Source of the DNA: Phycisphaerales bacterium
GTDB lineage: Bacteria > Planctomycetota > Phycisphaerae > Phycisphaerales > UBA1924
Assembly: GCA_007693785.1 (NCBI GenBank)
Contig: RECY01000028.1
Span: 248,001 to 312,000 of the forward strand
Length of the DNA stretch: 64,000 nucleotides
Reading direction: 5' to 3'
A program made the position numbers and the translations under genes. Shown here one piece after another: positions 31 through 13,212 of this stretch. A model generated the notes under the pieces. It was not told the origin of the DNA and did no database searches. It saw nothing but the letters and a program-made list of their open reading frames with translations. Every line of letters begins with the position of its first letter. Position 1 is the stretch's first letter.

Positions 31-894
31 ATGAGCCACGCGGCCCCCCCAGCGCCGCCACCGGGCGTCTCCCGCCCCGCCCCGCGCCGCCCGGTCGCCT
101 GGCTCGAGCCCGTGCTCGCGCCATGGAAGCGCCGCGTCTTGCTCGCCAACCTTTCCGGTCGCGAGTTGTCGCAGCGGTACAAAGGGTCGGCGCTCGGGTT
201 GCTCTGGGCCCTCGCCGGCCCTCTGCTCCAACTCGCGGTCTACGCGGTCGTCTTCGGCTGGCTGCTCAGCGCCCGCTTCGGAGACGCCGGCGATCGCGCG
301 ATGTACGTCCTCGAGCTTTTCTGCGGCATCCTGCTCTTCGGCATCTTCGCCGAGGTCATCTCCCGCGCGCCGACGCTGGTCATGGATAAGCAGAGCCTAG
401 TGACCAAGGTCGCGTTCCCGCTGGAGCTTTTGCCGCTGGTGGCGTTCTGGGCGGCGTTGGTGCCGGCGGTGCTGGGAATGGGGCTGCTGGTGGGGGGTGT
501 GTGGTACGTCACGGGGCGGGTGCCGTGGACCGCACCGCTGGTCGTGCTCCCTTTGATCCCTCTCCTGCTTTTGACCACCGGCTTGTCCTGGATCCTCTCG
601 GCGGTCGGCGTCTACGTGCGCGACACGCAGCACGCGATCCGCTCGGCCGTGCAGTTGCTTTTCTTCCTCACGCCCGTCGTCTGGCCCATCAGCATGTTGT
701 CCGATGAGATGCGGTTCTGGGTCATGCTGAACCCGATGGCCCAGGTCGTCGAGTGGTCCCGGGCCGTCCTGATCCACGGCACCATTCCCGACGCGGGGGC
801 GCTGCTCGTGCTCACGGTCGCGTGCCTGGCGGTCTGTCTCGTTGGCTCTTGGTGTTTTCAAGTGCTGAGGCGAGGCTTTGCGGATGTTGTTTAG
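31..894 (+). CDS. ABC-2 type polysaccharide export permease
   Basis: This is a 287-residue inner-membrane permease of the ABC-2 (Wzm/KpsM/TagG) type, which moves lipid-linked or complete polysaccharide across the inner membrane with a separate ATPase. About six hydrophobic segments are visible, roughly at residues 55-80, 95-115, 130-155, 165-190, 205-225 and 255-278. The FLTPVVWP motif before the fifth segment is typical of polysaccharide exporters. No ATPase lies downstream, so its partner is presumably to the left of the window. The methyltransferases and glycosyltransferases that follow on the same strand support a role in O-antigen or capsule export. The family is clear; the exact substrate is unknown. 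Confidence 0.85.
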   Translation: MSHAAPPAPPPGVSRPAPRRPVAWLEPVLAPWKRRVLLANLSGRELSQRYKGSALGLLWALAGPLLQLAVYAVVFGWLLSARFGDAGDRAMYVLELFCGILLFGIFAEVISRAPTLVMDKQSLVTKVAFPLELLPLVAFWAALVPAVLGMGLLVGGVWYVTGRVPWTAPLVVLPLIPLLLLTTGLSWILSAVGVYVRDTQHAIRSAVQLLFFLTPVVWPISMLSDEMRFWVMLNPMAQVVEWSRAVLIHGTIPDAGALLVLTVACLAVCLVGSWCFQVLRRGFADVV

Positions 895-1218: not shown

Positions 1219-4200
1219 ATGTGCAACCAGTGGTGCCTGGCCTTCGGGCGAAGCCTTAAGCCGAAGCTCCCGCAACGCGCCCGCGTGCTCGACGTCGGCT
1301 CGCGCGATGTCAACGGCTCGATGCGCGAGGTTTTCGCCGACATCGCTTCGGCATATGTCGGCGTGGATATCGAGGCCGGGCCCGGCGTCGACGTCGTCGG
1401 CGACGTGGTGGACCTGGGCGAGCTCGTCGGCTGGAACGCGTTCGACCTGGTGATGTCGACCGAGATGATCGAGCACTGCGAGCCCTGGCGGGATGCCGTC
1501 AGCGCGATGGTCGCCAGCGTGCGTGTGGGTGGGTACGTGCTGATCACGACCCGCAGCCCGGGCTTCGCGCTGCACGGGTATCCGAGCGACCATTGGCGGT
1601 ACACACGGGCGGACATGCGCCGCATCCTTGGTCCGGTTTGCGAGATCATCGACGTGCAGAGCGATCCGACGCTCGGCTGGGCGTGCGGGGTCGGTGTCCT
1701 GGCGCGACGCACGGCGACGGACGAGGAACTCCCCGCGTGGCGGGCCTCGCTCGACCACATCGAGCTGTACAAGGTGACCCCGGGCGTGGATATCGAAGGC
1801 ACGCACCGTGTGGAGCTCGCCGAGCCGCTGGACGACGACGCGGGGAAGGACGCCGGCTCGCCGGGCGAGCCGATCTGGGATCAGGTGAGCCGCTACTCGG
1901 GCGTCGCGCAGGCGATCCGAGCCAACGCCGGGGAGCGGGCGGTGCGTGTGCTGGACGTGGGCAGCGGGGAGCCGCGGCTGCTGCGGAGCCTGCTGCCCGG
2001 GTGCGAGGTCTGGTGCATGGATCCCTTGCTGGAGGGCGAGGGTGGGGCGGACGAGCGGGTGATCGCCGGTCGTCTCGGCGAGACCGTGATCCAGTCGGGC
2101 TCGTTCGACTGGGTCGTGTGCGTGGACACGCTGGAGCACGTGGCGCCGGGTGAACGGGCGTCGTTTCTGAAGTCGCTCGCGGCGGTGCCGAAGTCGGGTC
2201 TGGTGATTGCGGGCCCGCTCGCGGACGGCGGCGGTGCGAAGGCGGCCGACGAGGCGATCGATGCCATTTTCGAGGCACGGCACGGGCACGCCTACCCATG
2301 GCTCGCTGAGCACCGGGAGTACGGGTTGCCGTCGCGTTCGGAGATCGTCTCGGCTCTCGAAGGCGCGGGCTTTTCGCACGCCGAGTTTGGCAACGGGCGT
2401 CTCGATTGGCACCGGGATCTGCTCTCGGTCACGCTGCTGCTGATGGAGCATCCTTCGGGACGCTCGCCGCTGGAGCGTTTGAGCCGGTTCTTCGGCGAGC
2501 ACCTTGCCGCGATGGACCACGCCGAGCCGACGTACCGGCGCGTGATCGTCGCGACCCGTGGGAGCGCGCCCGTAGCGCCCAGCCTGCCCCAGGTGTCCGA
2601 GGCGGACCTGGTGCGGGGTGACGAGCGGCTTCGCGTCGCGATCTGCGGGGCGATCGACGATCTGGCGGGCGCGGTGGACGAGTCGACGCGTCAGCGGCTG
2701 TCGGCCGAGTTGGCGTTAAAAAACGCGAAAGCCGGTGAGGCGAACTGGCGCCGTGCGCACAGCGAGGTTCGGGAGCAGTTCCTGGAGGCGGTCGCCCGTC
2801 AGCAGGAGGCTCTGGTCAAGCTCCGCGCGGACTGGGGCGAGCGTGTGCGCACGATCGAGGCGCAGCGGGAAGAAGCGATCCGCCTCACCAAGGAAGCGCA
2901 CCAAAAGCAGGCGGCGTTGCAACGCGAGCTGCACGCCGAGCGAGCGGATCGCGAGAAAGCCCTCGCCGAAGCCCGGGCGCGTTTGGACGAATCGAACGCC
3001 GCGCACGGGGGCACGATCGAAGCGCTGCGAAGCGAAGTGGCGGCTCAGAGGGCTGAGGTTGCGCAGATGGGCGAGCGCCTGGCGGAAGCCGAGCGTGCGC
3101 ACGTCGCGACCGTGCGCACGCTGGAGGCGACGCGCGCCCGGGAGCTGGCCCAGCGGGACCGCGTGATCCGCCAGTTGCAGGCGCACGCCCGGGCGTCGGA
3201 CGCGGCGATCGAGGAGATGCAGCGCAGCACGGCCGTGCGCGTCGGGCGGCGTGTGGGGCAGGTCAAGCGCGGGCTGATCGGGCTGGTGCGCTCACCCAAG
3301 GCGACGGGCTCGGCTCTGGTCGAGCGCACGGGCAAGCTTGCGAAGCGCACGCTCCCGATGTCGCCCGAGATGCAGTGGAAGGCCGAGCGCGTGTTCTTCA
3401 CGTGCTTCGGCTCCCTGCTGCGGGCCACGCCGGCCTACGCGACGCACCAGATGGAGCGATCGCGCCGCGCGGGCACGCTCCCCCAGCCCCCGGCGGGGTC
3501 GGTCGAGATCAAGCCCGCCCGGGGCGAGGCGTCGTCGAACGGGCGTGCGTCGGTGGTCGAGGCCGTGCGCCCGGAAACAGCGGTCGTCGGGCTGGATACC
3601 GATCAGCCGGCGGTGATCGTCTTTGGCATCATCGACTGGCACTTCCGCCACCAGCGCCCGCAGCACCTGGCGGCGGCGCTCGCGCGCAAGGGGCACCGCG
3701 TCTTCTACGTCTCGCCAAGGTTTGTCGCGCGCCAGCGCGGCGGCAGCGACGACGAGGTGATCGACGTCGGCGGCGGGGCGGTCGTGCACCACACGCGCCT
3801 GTGGGTCAAGGGCGTGCCGCGGATCTACCACGGGATGCCGAGCGAGGAGCAGCAGGCGATCATGGTCGCGGGGCTGCGCCGGATGCTGCTGGAGCACCGG
3901 ATCGGGCGCACGATCTGCAAGATCGATCACCCGGGATGGGTCTGGCTGGCGAAGCACGTGCCGGACGGGTCGTTGGTCTACGACTGCATGGACCACCACG
4001 CGGGCTTTGAGAACACCGGGGGCGAGGTCGCGCAGCTCGAGGACGAGTTGCTGGCGATCGCGGACCTGACGCTGGTGACCAGCGGCTACTTGGAAGAGAT
4101 CATCGCGCCGCGCGTGCCGCAGCACGCGATGGTGCGGAACGCGTGCGACCCGGACCACTTTGCAACGAGGCCCGCAGAGGTCTGGCAAGACCCCGAGGGC

Positions 4201-5520
4201 CGCCCGGTGGTGGGGTACCTCGGCGCGATCGCGGAGTGGTTCGACGCGGAGCTGATCGACAAGGCGGCAGAGGCTCGCCCGGACGTCTGCTTCCTGCTGG
4301 TCGGCGGGGACAGCGCCGGGAACAAAGGGAAGCTGTCGCACCGGAAGAACGTGGTGTTTGTGGGCGAGATCCCGTACGCCGAGGCGGGCAAGTACGTCCA
4401 CGCGATGGACGTGTGCACGATCCCGTTCCAGATCACCGAGCTGATCAAGGCGACGAACCCGGTGAAGGTGTACGAGTACCTCGCGTCCGGGAAGCCGGTC
4501 GTGACGACCGACCTGCCGGAGCTGCGTGAGCCGGAGATCGACGGGCTGATTCATCGGGCCGAGTCGCACGAGGCGTTTATCGAGGCGATCGACGCCGCGC
4601 TCGCGGACAAGGGCGACCGCGAGCTCGCGGCCCGGCGCGAGGCGTTCGCTCGCGAGCAGACATGGGCCCATCGGGCGGCTTCGGTCGACGCGGCCCTGGA
4701 GAAGATGAGCGATCCGCTCGCCTCGGTCGTCGTCGTGACGTGGAACAACCTGGCGCTGACCAAGGCGTGCCTCGAGTCGGTGCTGAGCGAGCCGAGCTAC
4801 ACCAACATCGAGCTGATCGTGGTGGACAACGCCTCGACCGACGAGACGCCGGCGTATCTGGCGGAGCTGGCCGAGCGGGACAGCCGCGTCCGCGTGCTGC
4901 TCCAGACGCAGAATCTCGGCTTCGCGGGCGGGAACAACGTCGGGCTCGCCGCCGCCCGCGGGGCGTACATCTGCCTGCTCAACAACGATACGGTCGTGAC
5001 CCGCGGGTGGCTGCGGACCCTGATCAACCACGCGCGGCGCGATCCCACGATCGGGCTGATCGGGCCGGTGACGAATAACATCGGCAACGAGGCGCGGGTG
5101 GAGACGTCGTACAAGGCGATGGACGAGATGCACGCGCAGGCGTTCGTGATGACGCGGTCCGAGGCGGGGGGGACGCGCCCGCTCGCGGCGGCAGCGTTCT
5201 TCTGCGTGCTGGCGCGGGCCGCGGTGTGGCGCGAGGTCGGCGTGATCGACGAGAGCTACGAGCGCGGGTATTTCGAGGACGACGACTATTGCCGTCGCAT
5301 CCTCGCGGCCGGGTACCGCATCGTGTGCGCCGAGGACGTGTTCATCCATCACCACCTCGCGGCCTCGTTCGGCAGCCTCGGGCAGGAAGAACGCAACCGG
5401 CTGCTGCAGGTGAACCGGCAGGTGTTCGAGGCGAAGTGGGGTGCGTGGCAGCCGCACCGCTACCGCGGGGCGGACGAGCACCCGCCGCTCACGCTCGAAG
5501 CCGCCCGCCAGCGGCTGTAG
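1219..5520 (+). CDS. Multidomain methyltransferase x2 / coiled-coil / glycosyltransferase x2 protein
   Basis: This very large protein (1433 residues) joins five parts. Residues 21-165 are a class I SAM methyltransferase (RVLDVGS motif, then STEMIEH). Residues 240-445 are a second one (VRVLDVGSGE, VDTLEHV). Residues 485-670 form a long charged coiled coil. Residues 795-1160 are a GT4-like glycosyltransferase beginning VIVFGIIDWHFRHQRPQH and containing NPVKVYEYLASGKPV. Residues 1165-1420 are a GT2 domain with VVVTWNN, VVDNAST and the LNND metal-binding motif. I chose the ATG at 1219, preceded by GGGGGAG and just ahead of the first domain; the frame is open further upstream. By context it builds and methylates a surface glycan, with the coiled coil possibly acting as a scaffold or length ruler as in WbdD-type proteins (inference). 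Confidence 0.85.
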   Translation: MCNQWCLAFGRSLKPKLPQRARVLDVGSRDVNGSMREVFADIASAYVGVDIEAGPGVDVVGDVVDLGELVGWNAFDLVMSTEMIEHCEPWRDAVSAMVASVRVGGYVLITTRSPGFALHGYPSDHWRYTRADMRRILGPVCEIIDVQSDPTLGWACGVGVLARRTATDEELPAWRASLDHIELYKVTPGVDIEGTHRVELAEPLDDDAGKDAGSPGEPIWDQVSRYSGVAQAIRANAGERAVRVLDVGSGEPRLLRSLLPGCEVWCMDPLLEGEGGADERVIAGRLGETVIQSGSFDWVVCVDTLEHVAPGERASFLKSLAAVPKSGLVIAGPLADGGGAKAADEAIDAIFEARHGHAYPWLAEHREYGLPSRSEIVSALEGAGFSHAEFGNGRLDWHRDLLSVTLLLMEHPSGRSPLERLSRFFGEHLAAMDHAEPTYRRVIVATRGSAPVAPSLPQVSEADLVRGDERLRVAICGAIDDLAGAVDESTRQRLSAELALKNAKAGEANWRRAHSEVREQFLEAVARQQEALVKLRADWGERVRTIEAQREEAIRLTKEAHQKQAALQRELHAERADREKALAEARARLDESNAAHGGTIEALRSEVAAQRAEVAQMGERLAEAERAHVATVRTLEATRARELAQRDRVIRQLQAHARASDAAIEEMQRSTAVRVGRRVGQVKRGLIGLVRSPKATGSALVERTGKLAKRTLPMSPEMQWKAERVFFTCFGSLLRATPAYATHQMERSRRAGTLPQPPAGSVEIKPARGEASSNGRASVVEAVRPETAVVGLDTDQPAVIVFGIIDWHFRHQRPQHLAAALARKGHRVFYVSPRFVARQRGGSDDEVIDVGGGAVVHHTRLWVKGVPRIYHGMPSEEQQAIMVAGLRRMLLEHRIGRTICKIDHPGWVWLAKHVPDGSLVYDCMDHHAGFENTGGEVAQLEDELLAIADLTLVTSGYLEEIIAPRVPQHAMVRNACDPDHFATRPAEVWQDPEGRPVVGYLGAIAEWFDAELIDKAAEARPDVCFLLVGGDSAGNKGKLSHRKNVVFVGEIPYAEAGKYVHAMDVCTIPFQITELIKATNPVKVYEYLASGKPVVTTDLPELREPEIDGLIHRAESHEAFIEAIDAALADKGDRELAARREAFAREQTWAHRAASVDAALEKMSDPLASVVVVTWNNLALTKACLESVLSEPSYTNIELIVVDNASTDETPAYLAELAERDSRVRVLLQTQNLGFAGGNNVGLAAARGAYICLLNNDTVVTRGWLRTLINHARRDPTIGLIGPVTNNIGNEARVETSYKAMDEMHAQAFVMTRSEAGGTRPLAAAAFFCVLARAAVWREVGVIDESYERGYFEDDDYCRRILAAGYRIVCAEDVFIHHHLAASFGSLGQEERNRLLQVNRQVFEAKWGAWQPHRYRGADEHPPLTLEAARQRL

Positions 5521-5611
5521 ACTCGCCGTTGTCGGCGAACGCCCGGACGCACCAACGCTAGATCGAGATGCCAGACCGACACGCCAGGTCGATACGCTCA
5601 AGGGGATCCAC

Positions 5612-6469
5612 GTGCTCAACACCCTCCGCCGACTGCTCGGGCGCGACGCCGCCCAGGGGCGACGCCCCGTCGAGGTCATCGCCCGCCCGGGACAGGCCTC
5701 ACTCGGGGGCGACGACCGCGTCGTGGACTTCCGCTGCAACATCTGCGGCACGCGCGGCTCGCTGCCTTACGCCAAGTTCGGGCGCGAGCAGTGGTCCTGC
5801 CAGGGGTGCAAATCCACGAGCCGCATGCGCGGGATCGTTCACCTCGTGACGATGGGCCTGCTGGGGACCGACGCGCCGCTGAGCGAGATCGAGCCCCGGA
5901 AGGACCTCGTCGGGCTCGGCATGTCCGACTGGCAGGGGTACGCAAAACGGCTCGCGGAGAAGTTCGACTATCTGAACACGTTCTACGACCATGAGCCGCA
6001 GATGGACATCACGGATCCGCCGCCCGAGCGGTTCGGGACGTGCGATTTCATCATCTCGACGGACGTGTTCGAGCATGTGTGCACGCCGGTGAGCCGCGGG
6101 TTTGAGGGCGTTCGGAAGCTGCTGAAGCCGGGCGGGTTGTTCGTGTTCAGCGTGCCGTACAACCTGGAGGGTGCGACGGTTGAGCACTTCCCGGAGATGC
6201 ACGAGTTCGACATCGTGGACGGGGCGAACGGCAAGACGCTGATCAACCGGACCAAGGACGGGCGCGAGCAGCGGTTCGAGGGCCTGGTCTTCCACGGCGG
6301 CGAGGGCGCGACGCTGGAGATGCGGGTCTTCTCCAAGCAGGGCGTGATCGACGAATTGACCAGGGCCGGCTTCGTGGACATCGAGTTTTTTGAGGGCGCG
6401 CACGAGGCGAGCGGCGTGATCTTCCAAGAGGGGTGGTCGAGGCCGCTGCTGGCGAGGGCGCCGAAGTAA
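5612..6469 (+). CDS. SAM-dependent methyltransferase with N-terminal zinc ribbon
   Basis: This 285-residue class I methyltransferase carries a CNICG...CQGCKS four-cysteine pair near residues 36-60, probably a zinc-binding knuckle. The methyltransferase core follows, with CDFIISTDVFEHV as the post-II motif and LLKPGGLFVFSVPY as motif III. I start it at the GTG at 5612, preceded by AAGGGGA, because the upstream codons overlap the previous gene's end and read as low-complexity Arg-rich peptide. It lies 91 bases after the glycosyltransferase fusion on the same strand, so a role in glycan modification is likely. The methyl acceptor is unknown. Confidence 0.8.
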   Translation: MLNTLRRLLGRDAAQGRRPVEVIARPGQASLGGDDRVVDFRCNICGTRGSLPYAKFGREQWSCQGCKSTSRMRGIVHLVTMGLLGTDAPLSEIEPRKDLVGLGMSDWQGYAKRLAEKFDYLNTFYDHEPQMDITDPPPERFGTCDFIISTDVFEHVCTPVSRGFEGVRKLLKPGGLFVFSVPYNLEGATVEHFPEMHEFDIVDGANGKTLINRTKDGREQRFEGLVFHGGEGATLEMRVFSKQGVIDELTRAGFVDIEFFEGAHEASGVIFQEGWSRPLLARAPK

Positions 6470-7763: not shown

Positions 7764-8327
7764 CTACCGATCCCCGTACACGAACGGGCTCTCCAAGCTC
7801 GCGAACTCCGGCAGCTTCTCGTCTTTCACGCTCAGGCGCGGGTCCTGGTCGATCGGCCAGGGCAGGTTCAGCTCCGGATCGTTCCAGATCACGCCGCCCT
7901 CGGCGTCGGGGTGATACACCTCGGTCACCTTGTACGCGACCTCGGTCCCGGGCTCGAGCGTCACGAACCCGTGCGCAAAGCCCGGCGGCACCCAGAGCTG
8001 CTTCGCGTTCGACTCGCTCAGCTCCGCCGCCACCCAGCGCCCGTAGGTCGGGGAGTCCCGGCGCACGTCCACCGCCACGTCCCAGATCCGCCCTCGCACG
8101 ACGCGCACGAGCTTGCCCTGCGCGTGCGGCGGGCGCTGGAAGTGCAGACCGCGCAGCGTCCACGCGTGCTCAGACCGCGATTGGTTGTCCTGGACGAACA
8201 CCGCGTCGATCCCCAGACCCGCCAGCTTCGGGCGGGAGTACGTTTCCATGAAGTACCCGCGGTGGTCGCCGTGACGCTTCGGCGTGATCAGCACAACGTC
8301 GGGAATCTCCAGGCGCTCCAGCTCCAT
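7764..8327 (-). CDS. rfbC: dTDP-4-dehydrorhamnose 3,5-epimerase
   Basis: This enzyme epimerises dTDP-4-keto-6-deoxyglucose at C3 and C5 in dTDP-L-rhamnose synthesis. The 187-residue length is typical of RmlC. Family motifs are present in order: HGDHRGYF, the QDNQSRS loop, RGLHFQ with the catalytic His, VAVDVRRDSPTYG with the catalytic Asp, and YKVTEVYHPDAEGG near the C-terminus with the active-site Tyr. It follows rfbA by 33 bases on the same strand, so the two are almost certainly co-transcribed. rfbB and rfbD, needed for the complete pathway, are not in the window. Confidence 0.95.
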   Translation of the reverse strand: MELERLEIPDVVLITPKRHGDHRGYFMETYSRPKLAGLGIDAVFVQDNQSRSEHAWTLRGLHFQRPPHAQGKLVRVVRGRIWDVAVDVRRDSPTYGRWVAAELSESNAKQLWVPPGFAHGFVTLEPGTEVAYKVTEVYHPDAEGGVIWNDPELNLPWPIDQDPRLSVKDEKLPEFASLESPFVYGDR

Positions 8328-8360: not shown

Positions 8361-9248
8361 TCAGATCCAAGGCTCGATCAGGCGATCCCGCACAAGCCCG
8401 AGCAGATACTCGCCGTAGCTGTTGGACTTCATCTCCTCGCCCAGACGTTCGAGCTGCGCGTCGTCGATGAAGCCCATCCGCCAGGCGATCTCTTCCGGGC
8501 AGGAGATCATGCGCCCCTGGCGTTCTTCGATCGCCTGGACGAAGACTTGGGCCTGGAGGAGGCTCTCGTGCGTGCCGGCGTCGAGCCACGCCAGCCCGCG
8601 ACCCCAGACCTGCACGTGCAGCTCGTTCATCTCCATATAGATCTTGTTAACGTCGGTGATCTCAAGTTCGCCGCGGGGCGAGGGCTTGAGGTTGTCGACG
8701 ATGTCCACGACGCGGTTGTCGTAGAAGTAGAGCCCGGGGACGGCGAAGTGGCTCTTGGGTTTGGCGGGTTTTTCCTCGATGGAGACGGCCCGGTTGTTCT
8801 GGTCGAACTCGACGACGCCGTAACGCTCGGGATCTTTGACGGGGTAGCCGAAAACGGTCGCACCCTTCTCCAGCTTGACGGCCTCGACGAGCGTGCGCCG
8901 CAGCCCGCTGCCGTAGAAGATGTTGTCGCCGAGGATGAGGCAGACGGGTTCCTTGCCGATGAAGGCCTTGTCGAGCTGGAAGGCCTGGGCGAGGCCTTTG
9001 GGCTCCGGCTGGACGACGTAGCTGAACGACATGCCCCACTGGGAGCCGTCGCCGAGCATCGACTTAAAGAGCGGCAGGTGCTCCGGGGTGCTGATGATGA
9101 GCACCTCGCGGATGCCCGCGAGCATGAGGACGCTCAGCGGGTAGTAGAGCATCGGCTTGTTGTAAACGGGCAGCAGCTGCTTGCTGATGGCCCGGGTCAG
9201 TGGCCACAGGCGTGTCCCGTGCCCCCCCGCGAGAATGATCCCCTTCAC
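8361..9248 (-). CDS. rfbA: Glucose-1-phosphate thymidylyltransferase
   Basis: This enzyme joins dTTP and glucose 1-phosphate to make dTDP-glucose, the first step of the dTDP-rhamnose pathway. The nucleotide-binding signature [11 protein letters not shown] is at the extreme N-terminus, followed by [20 protein letters not shown], and the VEFDQ and IEEKP blocks of RmlA. I place the start at the GTG at 9248, with GAGAGGGG just upstream. This gives 295 residues, the normal family length, and puts the signature at residue 7; the frame is open for 63 more codons upstream, but they read as low-complexity peptide. It is the first gene of the rfbA-rfbC-glycosyltransferase run. Confidence 0.95.
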
Positions 9249-9719
9249 GAACGCCCCTCTCGTTGGTGTCTCTCGGTTCGCCCGGGCCGCGTGGCTTCCG
9301 GGGGCGATTGTACGGGCCCGCGTGGGCGACGGAGCCCCGGGTCGGCTCACACGGGGCTCGCCCGCTCTCGGGGGATGGTTTGCCGCGTCTGCCGCCCGAT
9401 GCGTGCCTCTTTCCCGTTCAACGCACGGTTGGAGCACGGTTTACGCACCCGCCCGGCACCGGCGTGCGGCGCGGGCCGGGTCGCCGCGTCGGTGTACGTG
9501 TGCTCGGAGATGATCGGTCGTCGGATGAACCCGACTCGGACGCTGCGGGATCACGGAGCGGGCGACGCACTTGCTGCTGAGGGTGCGTGCCGTTGCGGCG
9601 GCCCGTCGCGCCAGGTGGTCCCGCCCCGGGCGGGCCGGTTGCGGCATCGGTCCTTCAGGGATATCGTAAAGCTCGCGAGGGAACGGAATACTTTGATTCT
9701 CGAATCTGGGAGAACGATC
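9249..9719. other. Divergent intergenic region, no gene recognised
   Basis: These 471 bases separate the divergently transcribed rfbA and the TraT-like lipoprotein gene, so promoters for both should lie here. All reading frames give low-complexity Arg/Ala/Pro-rich translations and none has a plausible ribosome-binding site and domain together. The only structure I can point to is a compact inverted repeat, CCCGCCC-C-GGGCGGG, at 9620-9634. Local base composition becomes less GC-rich over the last 60 bases before 9720, as expected of a promoter, but I cannot assign -35 and -10 boxes. Confidence 0.5.
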
Positions 9720-10514
9720 GTGACCATTCGAACATGCGTGGCGTTGCTGGTGCTGATCGCGATGAGCCCGATGCTCGTCGGGTGCAAGGCGACCGCCGAG
9801 AGCGCCCGGGACAACACGCAGCTTTCGACGATGCTGCCGGCGACGCGGATCGACCCGCCGCGCCCGGGGCAGAACTCGATCTGGGTGGAGTGGCAGGACC
9901 AGACGGGGCAGGGGATCGACCTGTACAACGACGTGGTGCGGTCGGTGGAGGAGATGGGCTACCGGGCGGTGAACGACTTTGAGGCCGCCGACTACGCCCT
10001 GTGGGCGACGCTGCGGATCTTCGATCGCGTGGACAGCAGCTTCGATGAGCGTGTCGCGGGGCTGGGCGGGATCGCGGGCGGGATCGCCGCGGGCACCGCG
10101 ATCGGTCAGGCAACGGGCAACTGGGGGTACGGGACCGCGGGCGGCGTGGCGGCCGGCGGTCTCGCGGCGGCCGGCATCGCGGCGCTGACGCGCCAGAACG
10201 AGTGGGCGATGGTCGTGGACATCCAACTGGGCCGCCGGGTCGAGGGGGGTGTCGAGACCGGGCAGACCTCCAGCCGCGACGCCGACGCCATCGCCCGCAC
10301 GGGCATGGGCACGGGCATGAGCGCCGAAGGCGGGCGATCCGTTGACGAGCAGACGCGGAGCCAAGCCTTCACCGAAACCCGGGCCCGCTTCGAGCTTGAG
10401 CAGCGCATCATGGCTCGCACGGGTGGCACCCGCATGGATCGCCCCGTCGCGCTCGACGCGATGCTCCCCCGTCTCCGCAACGCCCTGAGCGCGCAGCTCC
10501 CCAGGGCTCGCTGA
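9720..10514 (+). CDS. TraT-like complement-resistance family lipoprotein
   Basis: This 264-residue protein starts with a lipoprotein signal peptide whose lipobox is LVGC (Cys at about residue 22). The pattern after it matches the TraT family: a short LSTMLPAT segment, a strand around SIWVEWQDQT, then GYRAVNDFEAADYALWATLRI, a glycine/alanine-rich hydrophobic stretch (residues about 115-150), and MVVDIQLGRR. TraT proteins are outer-membrane lipoproteins that block mating-pair formation and complement on F-like plasmids. Chromosomal homologues have no settled role. The GTG at 9720 is chosen because GGGAG precedes it and the signal peptide follows directly. A hairpin at 10583-10612 closes the gene, which appears monocistronic. 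Confidence 0.75.
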   Translation: MTIRTCVALLVLIAMSPMLVGCKATAESARDNTQLSTMLPATRIDPPRPGQNSIWVEWQDQTGQGIDLYNDVVRSVEEMGYRAVNDFEAADYALWATLRIFDRVDSSFDERVAGLGGIAGGIAAGTAIGQATGNWGYGTAGGVAAGGLAAAGIAALTRQNEWAMVVDIQLGRRVEGGVETGQTSSRDADAIARTGMGTGMSAEGGRSVDEQTRSQAFTETRARFELEQRIMARTGGTRMDRPVALDAMLPRLRNALSAQLPRAR

Positions 10515-10582
10515 GTGACCGGCCGCCCGCACCCGGCGGGCGCTCCCGAGGGCCGCATCAGCACCTGATCCCACACACCCGA

Positions 10583-10612
10583 CGCCCCGCCGAGGTCACC
10601 CTCGGCGGGGCG
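10583..10612 (+). terminator. GC-rich hairpin, probable terminator
   Basis: A perfect 13-base inverted repeat, CGCCCCGCCGAGG and CCTCGGCGGGGCG, brackets a TCAC loop, 68 bases after the stop of the TraT-like gene. Only a weak T-containing tail (TTGT) follows. The very stable stem and its position between two same-strand genes with separate ribosome-binding sites make termination or attenuation the best explanation. Confidence 0.6.
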
Positions 10613-10667
10613 TTGTGCCTGATACCCTTTCAGGCGAGGAAACCCCGAACAATTTCAGGAGGCATCC

Positions 10668-11609
10668 GTGAGCACACCCATCGCCGGCCTGCACCACGTC
10701 ACCGCCCTCGCCAAGAGCCCGCAGGAAAACAAACGCTTCTACACCACCGTCCTCGCCCAGCGGATGGTCAAGCGGACCGTCAACTTCGACGACCCGAGCA
10801 CCTATCACCTCTACTACGGCGACGACCTCGGCTCGCCCGGCACGCTCCTGACCCACTTCCCGCACCCCTACGCCCGTCGGGGCGTCCACGGGAACCACGA
10901 GATCGAGCGCACGATCCTGGCGATCCCCCAGGGCTCGAGCGGGTTCTGGCGGGAGCGGCTGGACCGGTACGACGTCGGCGTCGAGGCTGCGGAGGCGTTC
11001 GGGCAGTCACGCCTGCATTTTGCGGACCACGACGGGATGCTCTTCGCGCTCGCCGAGCAGGACGAGAGCGGGGCGGCCCCGGTCCCGGTCATCGGCGATC
11101 GGGGCGGGCTGCCCGGCGACCGGGCGCTCGGGCGGATCCTGGGCGTGGCGATCCGTGTGCGGGAGGCGGAGGCGACGGCGACGGCCCTGACCGGGGCGCT
11201 CGGCTTCCGCGCCGGGGCGACCGAGGGGCGTTCGCAGCGATTCACGGTGGGCGAAGGGGCGAAGCAGGCGTGGGTCGAGTTGATCGAGGACCCGGACGCG
11301 CCCGAGAGCGACATGGGGGCCGGGACGGTGCACCACGTCGCGTGGCGCGTGGCGACGGACGAGGACCAGGCGGAGGTCGGCGAGCGACTGCGCGAGGCGC
11401 GGATCGGGGTGACCGAGGTCCGCGACCGGTTTTATTTCCGGTCGATCTATTTCCGCATGCCGGGGGGCGTGATTTTCGAGATCGCGACCGACGGCCCGGG
11501 GATGGACGCCGATGAGCCGCGGGACGCGTTGGGGGCGACGTTGCAGATCCCGCCGATGTATAAGTCGCAGGGAGCGCAGATCGCGGCCCATCTGGAGCCG
11601 TTGGAGTAG
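10668..11609 (+). CDS. Ring-cleaving dioxygenase / glyoxalase superfamily protein
   Basis: This 313-residue protein has two vicinal-oxygen-chelate modules. The first starts at GLHHVTA (residues 7-13) with a likely metal-binding His; the second contains VHHVAWRV and ends at FEIATDGPG with the expected Glu ligand. Overall it resembles the LinE/MhqO-type proteins annotated as ring-cleaving dioxygenases, which act on hydroquinones or related electrophiles. The GTG start at 10668 is preceded by a strong AGGAGG. It stands alone between a terminator hairpin and a convergent gene starting 14 bases after its stop. Substrate unknown. Confidence 0.82.
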   Translation: MSTPIAGLHHVTALAKSPQENKRFYTTVLAQRMVKRTVNFDDPSTYHLYYGDDLGSPGTLLTHFPHPYARRGVHGNHEIERTILAIPQGSSGFWRERLDRYDVGVEAAEAFGQSRLHFADHDGMLFALAEQDESGAAPVPVIGDRGGLPGDRALGRILGVAIRVREAEATATALTGALGFRAGATEGRSQRFTVGEGAKQAWVELIEDPDAPESDMGAGTVHHVAWRVATDEDQAEVGERLREARIGVTEVRDRFYFRSIYFRMPGGVIFEIATDGPGMDADEPRDALGATLQIPPMYKSQGAQIAAHLEPLE

Positions 11610-11622
11610 GTGATCGCGATGG

Positions 11623-13212
11623 TCAGCTCTCCGACGCGTTGGGCTCGCGCTGGGCGGCGGCTTCGGGCTGCTGGCGGGAGAGGTGCGCGATGCTCCGCCA
11701 GAGGTGGTAGGCGACGCGGTCGCACCAGCGCAGGGCTTCGATGCGTTCGGCCGAGGTGTGCGGGGTGATCACGCCCTGGGCGGCCTGCTCGATCGCCCCG
11801 GCGCGTCCGTTGCGACGCTGCTCGGCGATCTCGCGGCTCATCGCGCCGGCGCGGTCCGGATCGGCGTGGAGCGGATCGTGCGCGAGGGTCAACGCTTCGG
11901 TGAGCTTGGCGTGCGCGCCCGTGCCGTGTGGCCCGGTGAGACGGGTGTGGACGGGCGTGGGCTCGGCGGCGGCGTCGATCAGGCTCTCGATGTGGTCGAG
12001 GGCGTGGACGAGGGAGGTCTGCTCGGCGACGTCGTGGGAGCTCGCGGGCTGGGTGCCGATCGCGGCGAGGACGGAGCGCGAGCGGTCGACCGCGGCTCGC
12101 GCCTGTTCGAGGACGCGGGGCGGCGTGCGCCCGTGCTGGGTGAGGCGTGCGTGGATGCCGGCGCCGAGGGCGACGGTCGTCGCGCCGAGGGTCGTGCGAA
12201 CGGCGTCGAGCGCGACGCCCGGCACGTCGGCGAGCGCGGGGTCGAGTCGGTCGATTTCGGGCATCTCGCCGGCGGGGGCGAGGCGCTCGATGAGGCGTGA
12301 GAAGGGGCCGATGAGGGGGAGAAGCACGAGCACGCCGACGACGTTGAAGACGGTGTGGAAGGTGGCGAGGGCGACGGTGTCGGCGCCGCCCTGGATGTTC
12401 TGTGTCGCCCAGTCGGCGACGCGGACCATGACGGGGATCATGGGCAGGGCGAGGAGCGCGGTGATGACGTTGAAGCCGATGTGGGCGAAGGCGGTGCGCC
12501 GCCCGGCGGTGGGGGCGCCGATCGCGATCAGGGCGGCCTTGACGCAGGTGCCGACGTTCTGCCCGATGACGAGCCCGGCGGCCTGATCGAGGTTGATCGT
12601 GCCGGTGTGGAGGGCGGCGAGGGTCATCGCGACGGCGGCGCTGGAGGACTGGAGGACGACCGTCATCACGACGCCGATGCCGACGAGCCCGAAGATGCCG
12701 AGGAGCGTCGCGGGCGGGAAGCTGGCGGGCGTGACGTGCTCGCTGAGCCCGGACATGCCCTCCTGGAGCGCGGCGAGTCCGACGAAAAGAACGCCGAAGC
12801 CGGCGAGGGTCATGCCGAGGGCGGCCAGCCTGTCCTTGGCGAGGAGCTTGCAGAGGACGCCGATGAAGATCAGGGGCTCGACGTAGCGGGAGATCGAAAA
12901 CTCGAAGCCGAGGAGGGCGACGATCCAGCTGGTGCTGGTGGTGCCGAGGTTGGCGCCGAAGATGACGCCGATCGCTTGGGGGAAGGTGAGCAGGCCGGCG
13001 CTGGCGAAGCCGATGGTGGTGATGGTGGTGGCAGACGAGGACTGGACAAGGGCGGTGATGCCGGCGCCCCACCCGATGCCGGAGATGGGCCCGGAGATGA
13101 ATCTTGAGAGTACGGCTCGGAGGGCGGGTCCGGCGAGGGCCTTGAGCCCGTCGGTCATGAGGGTCATGCCGAGAAGGAAGAGGCCGATGCCGCCGAGGGT
13201 CTGCCAGATCAT
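11623..13212 (-). CDS. Na/Pi cotransporter family protein with PhoU-like C-terminus
   Basis: This 529-residue membrane protein belongs to the Na+/phosphate symporter family (PF02690). The family's inverted repeat is visible as two QSSSA motifs, ALVQSSSATT near residue 55 and VVLQSSSAAV near residue 185, each in a glycine-rich hydrophobic hairpin. About eight or nine membrane segments occupy residues 1-320. The remaining 200 residues are soluble and helical, like the PhoU-like tail of YjbB/NptA proteins. Its start overlaps the stop of the acetyltransferase gene by four bases, so the two are coupled. It probably moves phosphate, but family members without the PST system can also export it. Confidence 0.88.
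   Translation of the reverse strand: MIWQTLGGIGLFLLGMTLMTDGLKALAGPALRAVLSRFISGPISGIGWGAGITALVQSSSATTITTIGFASAGLLTFPQAIGVIFGANLGTTSTSWIVALLGFEFSISRYVEPLIFIGVLCKLLAKDRLAALGMTLAGFGVLFVGLAALQEGMSGLSEHVTPASFPPATLLGIFGLVGIGVVMTVVLQSSSAAVAMTLAALHTGTINLDQAAGLVIGQNVGTCVKAALIAIGAPTAGRRTAFAHIGFNVITALLALPMIPVMVRVADWATQNIQGGADTVALATFHTVFNVVGVLVLLPLIGPFSRLIERLAPAGEMPEIDRLDPALADVPGVALDAVRTTLGATTVALGAGIHARLTQHGRTPPRVLEQARAAVDRSRSVLAAIGTQPASSHDVAEQTSLVHALDHIESLIDAAAEPTPVHTRLTGPHGTGAHAKLTEALTLAHDPLHADPDRAGAMSREIAEQRRNGRAGAIEQAAQGVITPHTSAERIEALRWCDRVAYHLWRSIAHLSRQQPEAAAQREPNASES

Follow-up and report, generated by a model that had tools for sequence, protein, structure and literature searches.

Domain organization of the gene

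The DNA analyzed here (the window) is a 64,000-nucleotide stretch of the genome of a Phycisphaerales bacterium (assembly GCA_007693785.1; 3.06 Mb in 45 contigs) and corresponds to positions 248001 to 312000 of contig C28 (RECY01000028.1). Close to its start lies a gene that joins two methyltransferases (MT1 and MT2), a coiled coil, and two glycosyltransferases (GT4 and GT2) in one chain. The gene is a single open frame without an internal stop, from an ATG at 1219 to a stop codon at 5520. The GC content at third codon positions (GC3) was 0.78 to 1.00 in 24 of 24 blocks, and no break was seen at the domain borders. The features of the gene are as follows.

1219 to 5520, plus strand: whole gene, MT1-MT2-coil-GT4-GT2, 1,433 amino acids; open frame with even GC3
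1219 to 1713, plus strand: MT1, class I methyltransferase, residues 1 to 165 (end approximate); Pfam match at 13 to 130; an added module that elsewhere was met only in small frames of its own
1861 to 2628, plus strand: MT2, class I methyltransferase and proposed chain terminator, residues 215 to 470 (borders approximate); Pfam match at 244 to 327; relatives beside Wzm-Wzt
2599 to 3288, plus strand: long helix or coiled coil, residues 461 to 690 in the AlphaFold model and 491 to 674 in the composition scan
3238 to 3291, plus strand: cationic amphipathic helix, residues 674 to 691, which may act as a membrane anchor on the GT side of the coil; hydrophobic moment 0.67
3613 to 4686, plus strand: GT4 module, residues 799 to 1156; Pfam, family alignment, GT-B fold
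4708 to 5466, plus strand: GT2 module, residues 1164 to 1416; Pfam, invariant columns, GT-A matches

The Pfam matches were to Methyltransf_23 for MT1 (1.2e-15 for the protein), Methyltransf_25 for MT2 (7.9e-7), Glyco_trans_1_4 for GT4 (residues 996 to 1130; 1e-14), and Glycos_transf_2 for GT2 (residues 1169 to 1300; 7.8e-30). With four Pfam domains and a modelled helical coil in one intact frame, the original prediction of five domains in a single chain was borne out, and the coil, predicted at about 185 residues, measured 184 in the composition scan.

One common alignment for both methyltransferases was dropped, and MT1 was left out of the structure model, because the relatives of MT1 aligned onto MT2. 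The AlphaFold model thus covers residues 210 to 1404. It was based on 21 aligned sequences and reached a mean predicted local distance difference test (pLDDT) score of 83, markedly lower along the coil. Two long helices (461 to 594 and 600 to 690) were followed by shorter ones, and both transferase domains were formed. When this large model was compared with the PDB, the results were filled by glycosyltransferase matches. The GT4 part aligned with GT-B enzymes (Z 25 to 33 in the 50 rows listed) and GT-A enzymes were among the Foldseek matches of the model, in agreement with the two different folds that had been predicted. In the GT2 module, the DNAS, NND, and EDDD columns were invariant in six aligned rows. 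Directly after the coil of the composition scan, residues 674 to 691 form the strongest amphipathic 18-mer within residues 471 to 812, with a moment of 0.67 versus a protein mean of 0.24 and a 99th percentile of 0.54.

No kinase was found among the 11 Pfam families detected at E 0.1, and both N-terminal domains matched methyltransferases. Neither MT1 alone nor MT2 alone matched any PDB sequence at E 0.1, the solved WbdD structure included. Identity with TuaH (NF047676) was rejected, since the score was 104.9 bits against a curated cutoff of 550 bits.

Genes around the five-domain protein

An ATP-binding cassette (ABC) exporter of the ABC-2 type lies beside the gene, as had been predicted. Its permease opens the window, and its ATPase, which carries ABC_tran and Wzt_C (1.1e-18), ends approximately 1.9 kb before the window start. 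The neighboring genes within the window are as follows.

31 to 894, plus strand: Wzm-type ABC-2 permease; Pfam ABC2_membrane, 4.2e-17
5441 to 6469, plus strand: Zn-ribbon methyltransferase-like gene (start uncertain); Pfam and sequence comparison; a related stretch precedes MT2 in locus L075
6501 to 7673, minus strand: GT4-type glycosyltransferase gene; Pfam
7764 to 8327, minus strand: rmlC, dTDP-rhamnose pathway; phmmer, 8e-63
8361 to 9437, minus strand: rmlA, dTDP-rhamnose pathway; phmmer, 4e-115

Upstream of the window are a sulfotransferase/Zn-ribbon fusion, a second sulfotransferase, the Wzt ATPase, a divergent frame that matches sulfotransferases weakly (17.4 bits; cutoff, 27), and a Methyltransf_24 gene. 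The fusion (L007:1415-3325, minus strand) joins Sulfotransfer_3 to a Zn-ribbon methyltransferase-like domain, to which the gene at 5441 to 6469 is related. rmlD was found elsewhere on the same contig with a score above the family cutoff, and wecB, which serves UDP-ManNAc supply, was not found at this locus. A second region of the contig (G000:C28:106440-125868) carries rmlD together with GT4 and GT2 matches to the five-domain protein.

Distribution of the GT4-GT2 core

Genomes were searched with an alignment of the GT4-GT2 part and five relatives. The genome samples overlap, and in most of them few candidates per genome were scored. The full-length core was rare and patchy. It occurred in 6 of 392 Planctomycetota genomes and in 2 of 248 genomes of its own class (its own genome included in both counts), where two more matched in the GT2 part only. 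Another class gave 5 of 154 genomes, one core being cut, and a third class gave 2 of 14. Around two proteobacterial members, the core was present in 2 of 274 and 3 of 369 genomes (overlapping samples), and the larger sample also held one genome with GT4 only. Three plasmid records carry the GT4-GT2 core.

The comparison covered 20 core loci, this one included. L100 and L101, each of which matches part of the core only, were excluded; L039 and L086 (G836), which represent one and the same place, count as one locus; L043 and L099 were retained although their cores are cut by contig ends. Wzm and Wzt were present in the fetched stretch in 13 of the 20 loci and Wzt alone in one more (some contigs are short), and wecB lay within the stretch in 8. 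This locus and L043 both have rmlA and rmlC.

Two arrangements were seen besides. On an Azospirillum plasmid (L093:7179-9974 and 9971-11884, plus strand), the core forms a separate gene (638 amino acids) that overlaps a 931-amino-acid glycosyltransferase gene; a complete set of rml genes, wecB, and genes for a methyltransferase and an ABC ATPase lie in the vicinity. Two loci from the 369-genome sample that were found after the tree (see below), L161 and L162, stand outside the 20, and the core of L162 is cut by a contig end. In L161:5805-9176 (plus strand), rmlB, rmlA, rmlD, rmlC, Wzm, and Wzt are followed by a chain with a divergent GT4 match, in which a methyltransferase, a kinase-like part, and a very short coil were recognized by eye.

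Differing heads in front of the coil

Four kinds of domain head the coil in the core loci. A first methyltransferase kind was found in L038, L040, L042, and L094; the MT2 kind in this protein, L039, L077, and L096; a third methyltransferase kind in L097 and L099; and a sulfotransferase in L043, L078, and L098. In L075 the head is encoded as a separate gene, and the remaining six chains (L041, L074, L076, L079, L093, and L095) are headless, no more than 182 residues preceding the core. Scores between heads of one kind were 186 to 357 bits (first kind), 109 to 304 bits (MT2 kind, L075 gene included), 279 bits (L097 with L099), and 79 to 83 bits (sulfotransferases), against at most 29 bits between kinds; MT1 matched no head kind. 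The search for the same domain order that had been suggested with the prediction thus returned head-coil-GT4-GT2 chains elsewhere, three of them with an MT2-kind head, while this protein is the only one in the 20 core loci with two methyltransferases in its polymerase chain (no literature search was aimed at chains of this sort).

The sulfotransferase assignment was examined in several ways. With a Pfam cutoff of 27 bits, L078 scored above it (49.5), and L098 (20.8) and L043 (23.9) below. When the three heads were aligned with two sulfotransferases of the present locus, an invariant G, R-S-G-T, and a later R and S were kept. A model of L098 (mean pLDDT 61, with blocks of 42 to 87 in the sulfotransferase part) was compared with the PDB; the 14 best matches were sulfotransferases, six of them at E 0.001 or better but with low TM-scores, and P-loop kinases came next.

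When the 20 cores were placed on a maximum-likelihood tree, the three chains with sulfotransferase heads fell on three branches, and a single clade for their cores was rejected against ten other headed rows (approximately unbiased test, p-AU 2.3e-7). By tree path, the core nearest to the present one is that of L043, a sulfotransferase chain that fills 39% of the columns. Head exchange would place one related head on three distant cores in this way, and the pattern suggests that terminators, sulfotransferase heads included, were swapped between lineages; loss or parallel joining may also have produced it.

These sequence comparisons may point to a modular construction across the family: a single GT4-GT2 polymerase and a length-variable coil would be combined with exchangeable capping heads (several methyltransferase kinds, two at once, or sulfotransferases), and the sulfotransferase members would cap and measure a glycan with a terminal sulfate. 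We regard this proposal as possible but somewhat doubtful. If true, sulfotransferase heads would widen the chemistry for capping glycans and licensing them for ABC export. Neither a sulfotransferase head nor a terminal-sulfate terminator was found in the literature searched for it, which did not include most subscription journals.

Relatives of MT2 and MT1

Both methyltransferases were searched in 246 Planctomycetota genomes, and 39 other match rows were listed. The 25 for MT1 all lie in open frames of at most 412 amino acids, and the 14 for MT2 in frames of 262 to 2,088 amino acids. Regions were fetched for 16 of the 39 rows (10 for MT2 and 6 for MT1). L077 accounts for one more MT2 row; the remaining MT1 rows and three weak matches to MT2 were left out. 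Among the 10 fetched MT2 loci, the stretch includes both Wzm and Wzt in 8, with the MT2 frame directly next to that of Wzt in 7. MT2 is followed by a coil (read by eye) in L135, L136, L137, L138, L140, and L141; L139 is cut by a contig end. The stand-alone MT2-coil frame of L141 (L141:5591-8962, plus strand; 1,124 amino acids), which adjoins Wzt, has a coil of about 870 residues by eye and far exceeds the coil studied here.

The MT2-coil-GT4-GT2 chains of L039, L077, and L096 are accompanied by Wzm-Wzt in two of three cases. In L075 (G341), a Zn-ribbon-MT2-coil gene is divergent from a coil-GT4-GT2 gene, with Wzm and a Wzt whose C-terminal part (C-part) resembles the one here. L075 divides MT2-coil-GT4-GT2 between two genes, much as WbdD and WbdA share between them what WbbB holds in a single protein. 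The prediction had named homologues encoded separately in every relative as a point against the fusion, and the two methyltransferases differed in this respect: MT2 is fused to coil-GT4-GT2 in three other chains, and MT1 is kept apart in all 25 other rows.

Two giant chains, L143:1094-7357 and L134:1841-6103 (both minus strand; 2,088 and 1,421 amino acids), show MT2, a short coil, two or three GT2, and a GT4-like end (coils and GT4 ends read by eye), and probably represent another polymerase joined to an MT2-kind head. In L144 and L145, an MT1 frame is followed after 14 and 22 bases, respectively, by the open frame for a protein of approximately 1,560 amino acids that contains GT2.

Wzt was compared across these loci, L139 not included. 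Pfam Wzt_C was tested for the present locus alone, and the other C-parts were judged by the residues after the ATPase domain. Seventeen loci combine a head-coil protein with a complete Wzt, and 15 of them have 179 to 280 such residues; L099, whose Wzt is cut, was left out of this count. Similarity to the C-part of the present Wzt was highest for L043 (86 bits), followed by L039 (62), L075 (59), and L096 (45). The rule that the Wzt C-part follows the head, as expected from a cap-reading model, was not supported, since the C-part follows lineage; head type is largely confounded with phylum.

Variation of coil length

The three Paraburkholderia chains L040, L042, and L094 have coils of 181, 255, and 230 amino acids, respectively. 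Pairwise, their coils are 36 to 46% identical with 49 to 74 gapped residues. The corresponding values are 74 to 79% and 0 to 5 for the cores, 64 to 73% and 0 to 2 for the heads, and 47 to 64% and 2 to 9 for the linkers after the coil. In-frame tandem repeats were found in the coil DNA of L042 (42 bp × 4.9), L098 (84 bp × 2.5; 99% matches), and L094 (138 bp × 3.1; 97%), as well as in the separate head gene of L075 (21 bp × 6.7; 83%). The units of 42, 84, and 21 bp are whole heptads, and that of 138 bp is not. As far as can be judged from such comparisons, coil length changes freely, which fits a ruler and would fit other coils too.

The original prediction had called for the coil to be modelled and for its length to be followed between strains in step with chain length. 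Of this, the long helices and the variation of coil length between relatives were recovered. L040, L042, and L094 offer a natural series for asking whether the coil sets glycan length, with heads and glycosyltransferases that are nearly gap-free and coils that differ by 25 to 74 residues.

Proposed mechanism and alternatives

With moderate confidence, we propose that the protein acts as polymerase, ruler, and terminator in one chain for a surface glycan exported by the ABC-2 (Wzm/Wzt) transporter. GT4 and GT2 would sit at the membrane beside the amphipathic helix and alternately add sugars to a lipid-linked chain, and one of the added sugars is plausibly rhamnose. A helix rises 0.15 nm per residue, so a coil of approximately 185 to 230 residues would span approximately 27 to 34 nm. 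MT2, placed at its far end, would methylate the non-reducing end once the chain reaches it and thereby stop growth. MT1 may add a second methyl group to the chain end or modify another site. Wzt_C would then read the capped end, and the exporter would move the chain out.

The idea that one chain could extend, cap, and measure a glycan had been part of the original prediction. It gained support from the MT2 kind, which accompanies Wzm-Wzt in 8 of 10 loci and heads three other coil-GT4-GT2 chains, and from the Wzt_C domain at this locus. The domain order, the long helix of the model, the conserved glycosyltransferase motifs, the two-gene version in L075, the length variation and repeats of related coils, and the biochemistry of Klebsiella O7 also speak for it. 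As a novelty it did not stand, because WbbB and O7 ORF6 are already described as proteins of this type, and WsaE is known to join a methyltransferase to two glycosyltransferases.

Several observations weigh against a polymerase, ruler, and terminator. Of the matches listed for 100 other genomes from its family and order, none spans the whole core, the best being 8.9e-37 over 241 residues. In six of the 20 core loci, the fetched stretch shows no Wzt, and among the ten MT2 loci L134 and L142 (the latter just 337 amino acids) show no transporter. The Wzt C-part is missing in L098 and L143, which have a head, a coil, and a complete Wzt, and is present in the headless L041 and L093. Its similarity tracks lineage and not head, the closest being that of L043 with its sulfotransferase head. 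The heptad signal of the present coil (491 to 674) is modest, being matched by 16 of 500 shuffles; across the 17 coils scored, periodicity was under the 5% level in 8 and not under it in 9, L039 being exactly at it. Finally, no clear tandem repeat was found in the coil of this gene, which has only a weak 19-base repeat at 2632 to 2681.

Heavy decoration of the glycan is likely, given the sulfotransferase- and methyltransferase-like genes near the five-domain gene. Like the products of these neighbors, the methyltransferases might decorate the glycan along its length, with the coil only oligomerizing the protein and chain length set elsewhere. Two clear and one weak sulfotransferase frames, the Methyltransf_24 gene, and the Zn-ribbon methyltransferase-like domain upstream speak for this explanation, as do another such gene at 5441 to 6469, the small separate frames of MT1, and the two head-coil loci without a Wzt C-part. 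However, proteins of the MT2 type repeatedly carry a coil and occur together with Wzm-Wzt, and in characterized systems the sugar-binding part of Wzt reads the capped chain end (PMC11231755, PMC3482155). On balance, we consider decoration alone unlikely.

The two glycosyltransferases might instead make a short defined oligosaccharide, such as an adaptor or linker, with no polymer and with the coil as an enzyme scaffold. The six core loci without Wzt and the six headless chains would suit such a product, whereas an ABC-2 exporter with Wzt_C, a dual-glycosyltransferase core, and a coil between head and glycosyltransferases match the layout of a polymerase-terminator, which makes this explanation improbable.

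That the frame merely joins neighboring genes through an assembly or sequencing error, the artifact against which the prediction had warned, is hardly credible for head-coil-GT4-GT2 in view of the even GC3 without a frame break and of fusions in named Lysobacter and Paraburkholderia strains and on a complete Paraburkholderia plasmid, although the assembly is in 45 contigs, MT1 is seen elsewhere in small separate frames only, and the MT1-MT2 joint rests on this single frame.

Comparison with known systems

Polymerization, termination, and measurement by one protein have been described for Klebsiella O12 WbbB and O7 ORF6, and the biochemistry of the polymerase-terminator layout is shown for O7 and reported for O12 (PMC11231755, also the source for the following comparison). 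Extension, capping, and measurement in one chain are thus already described and not new. By architecture and by description, the present protein stands beside these two, with a terminator-like MT2 (residues 215 to 470, approximately) N-terminal to the coil, two glycosyltransferases C-terminal to it, and a locus with Wzm and a Wzt with a sugar-binding C domain (Wzt_C, 1.1e-18). Klebsiella pneumoniae O7 ORF6 likewise has an N-terminal methyltransferase terminator, a coiled coil, two C-terminal glycosyltransferases, an ABC exporter, and dTDP-rhamnose genes. It differs in its methyltransferase-kinase pair, immunoglobulin-like module, and GT2-GT2 arrangement, in place of which two methyltransferases, no detected kinase, and GT4-GT2 are found here. 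WbbB of O12 shares polymerization, termination, and a coil ruler in one chain. However, its terminator is a 3-deoxy-D-manno-oct-2-ulosonic acid (Kdo) transferase, and its three glycosyltransferase modules founded GT99, GT102, and GT103.

As described in PMC3482155, Escherichia coli O9a WbdD has a methyltransferase head, a long coil, and an ABC exporter partner with a sugar-binding Wzt, and the stand-alone MT2-coil relatives found here resemble it. In contrast to the present protein, WbdD has a kinase and no glycosyltransferases, and MT2 alone gave no PDB sequence match. WsaE of Geobacillus stearothermophilus joins an N-terminal methyltransferase to two glycosyltransferase domains in one chain, and its cluster, with Wzm-Wzt upstream and rml genes downstream, is similar in layout to the present locus, which also has Wzm-Wzt and rml genes (PMC2943079, PMC3898925). 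It has one methyltransferase, and the term coiled coil is absent from the review PMC2943079.

Aeromonas salmonicida WbbB (1,122 amino acids), compared here by description only, combines a head with 'GT1' and GT2 domains and is followed by wecB in its cluster; its head, however, is of the capsule-synthesis type (PMC4483657). A separate sulfotransferase gene lies beside Wzt in that organism, and deletion of WbbB removes the O-antigen, according to the same paper. Its 'GT1'-GT2 pair is possibly the same pairing as the GT4-GT2 described here, which would perhaps already be in print. Set against these systems, the new part is comparative and, judged from sequence, consists in the differing heads carried by one GT4-GT2 core.

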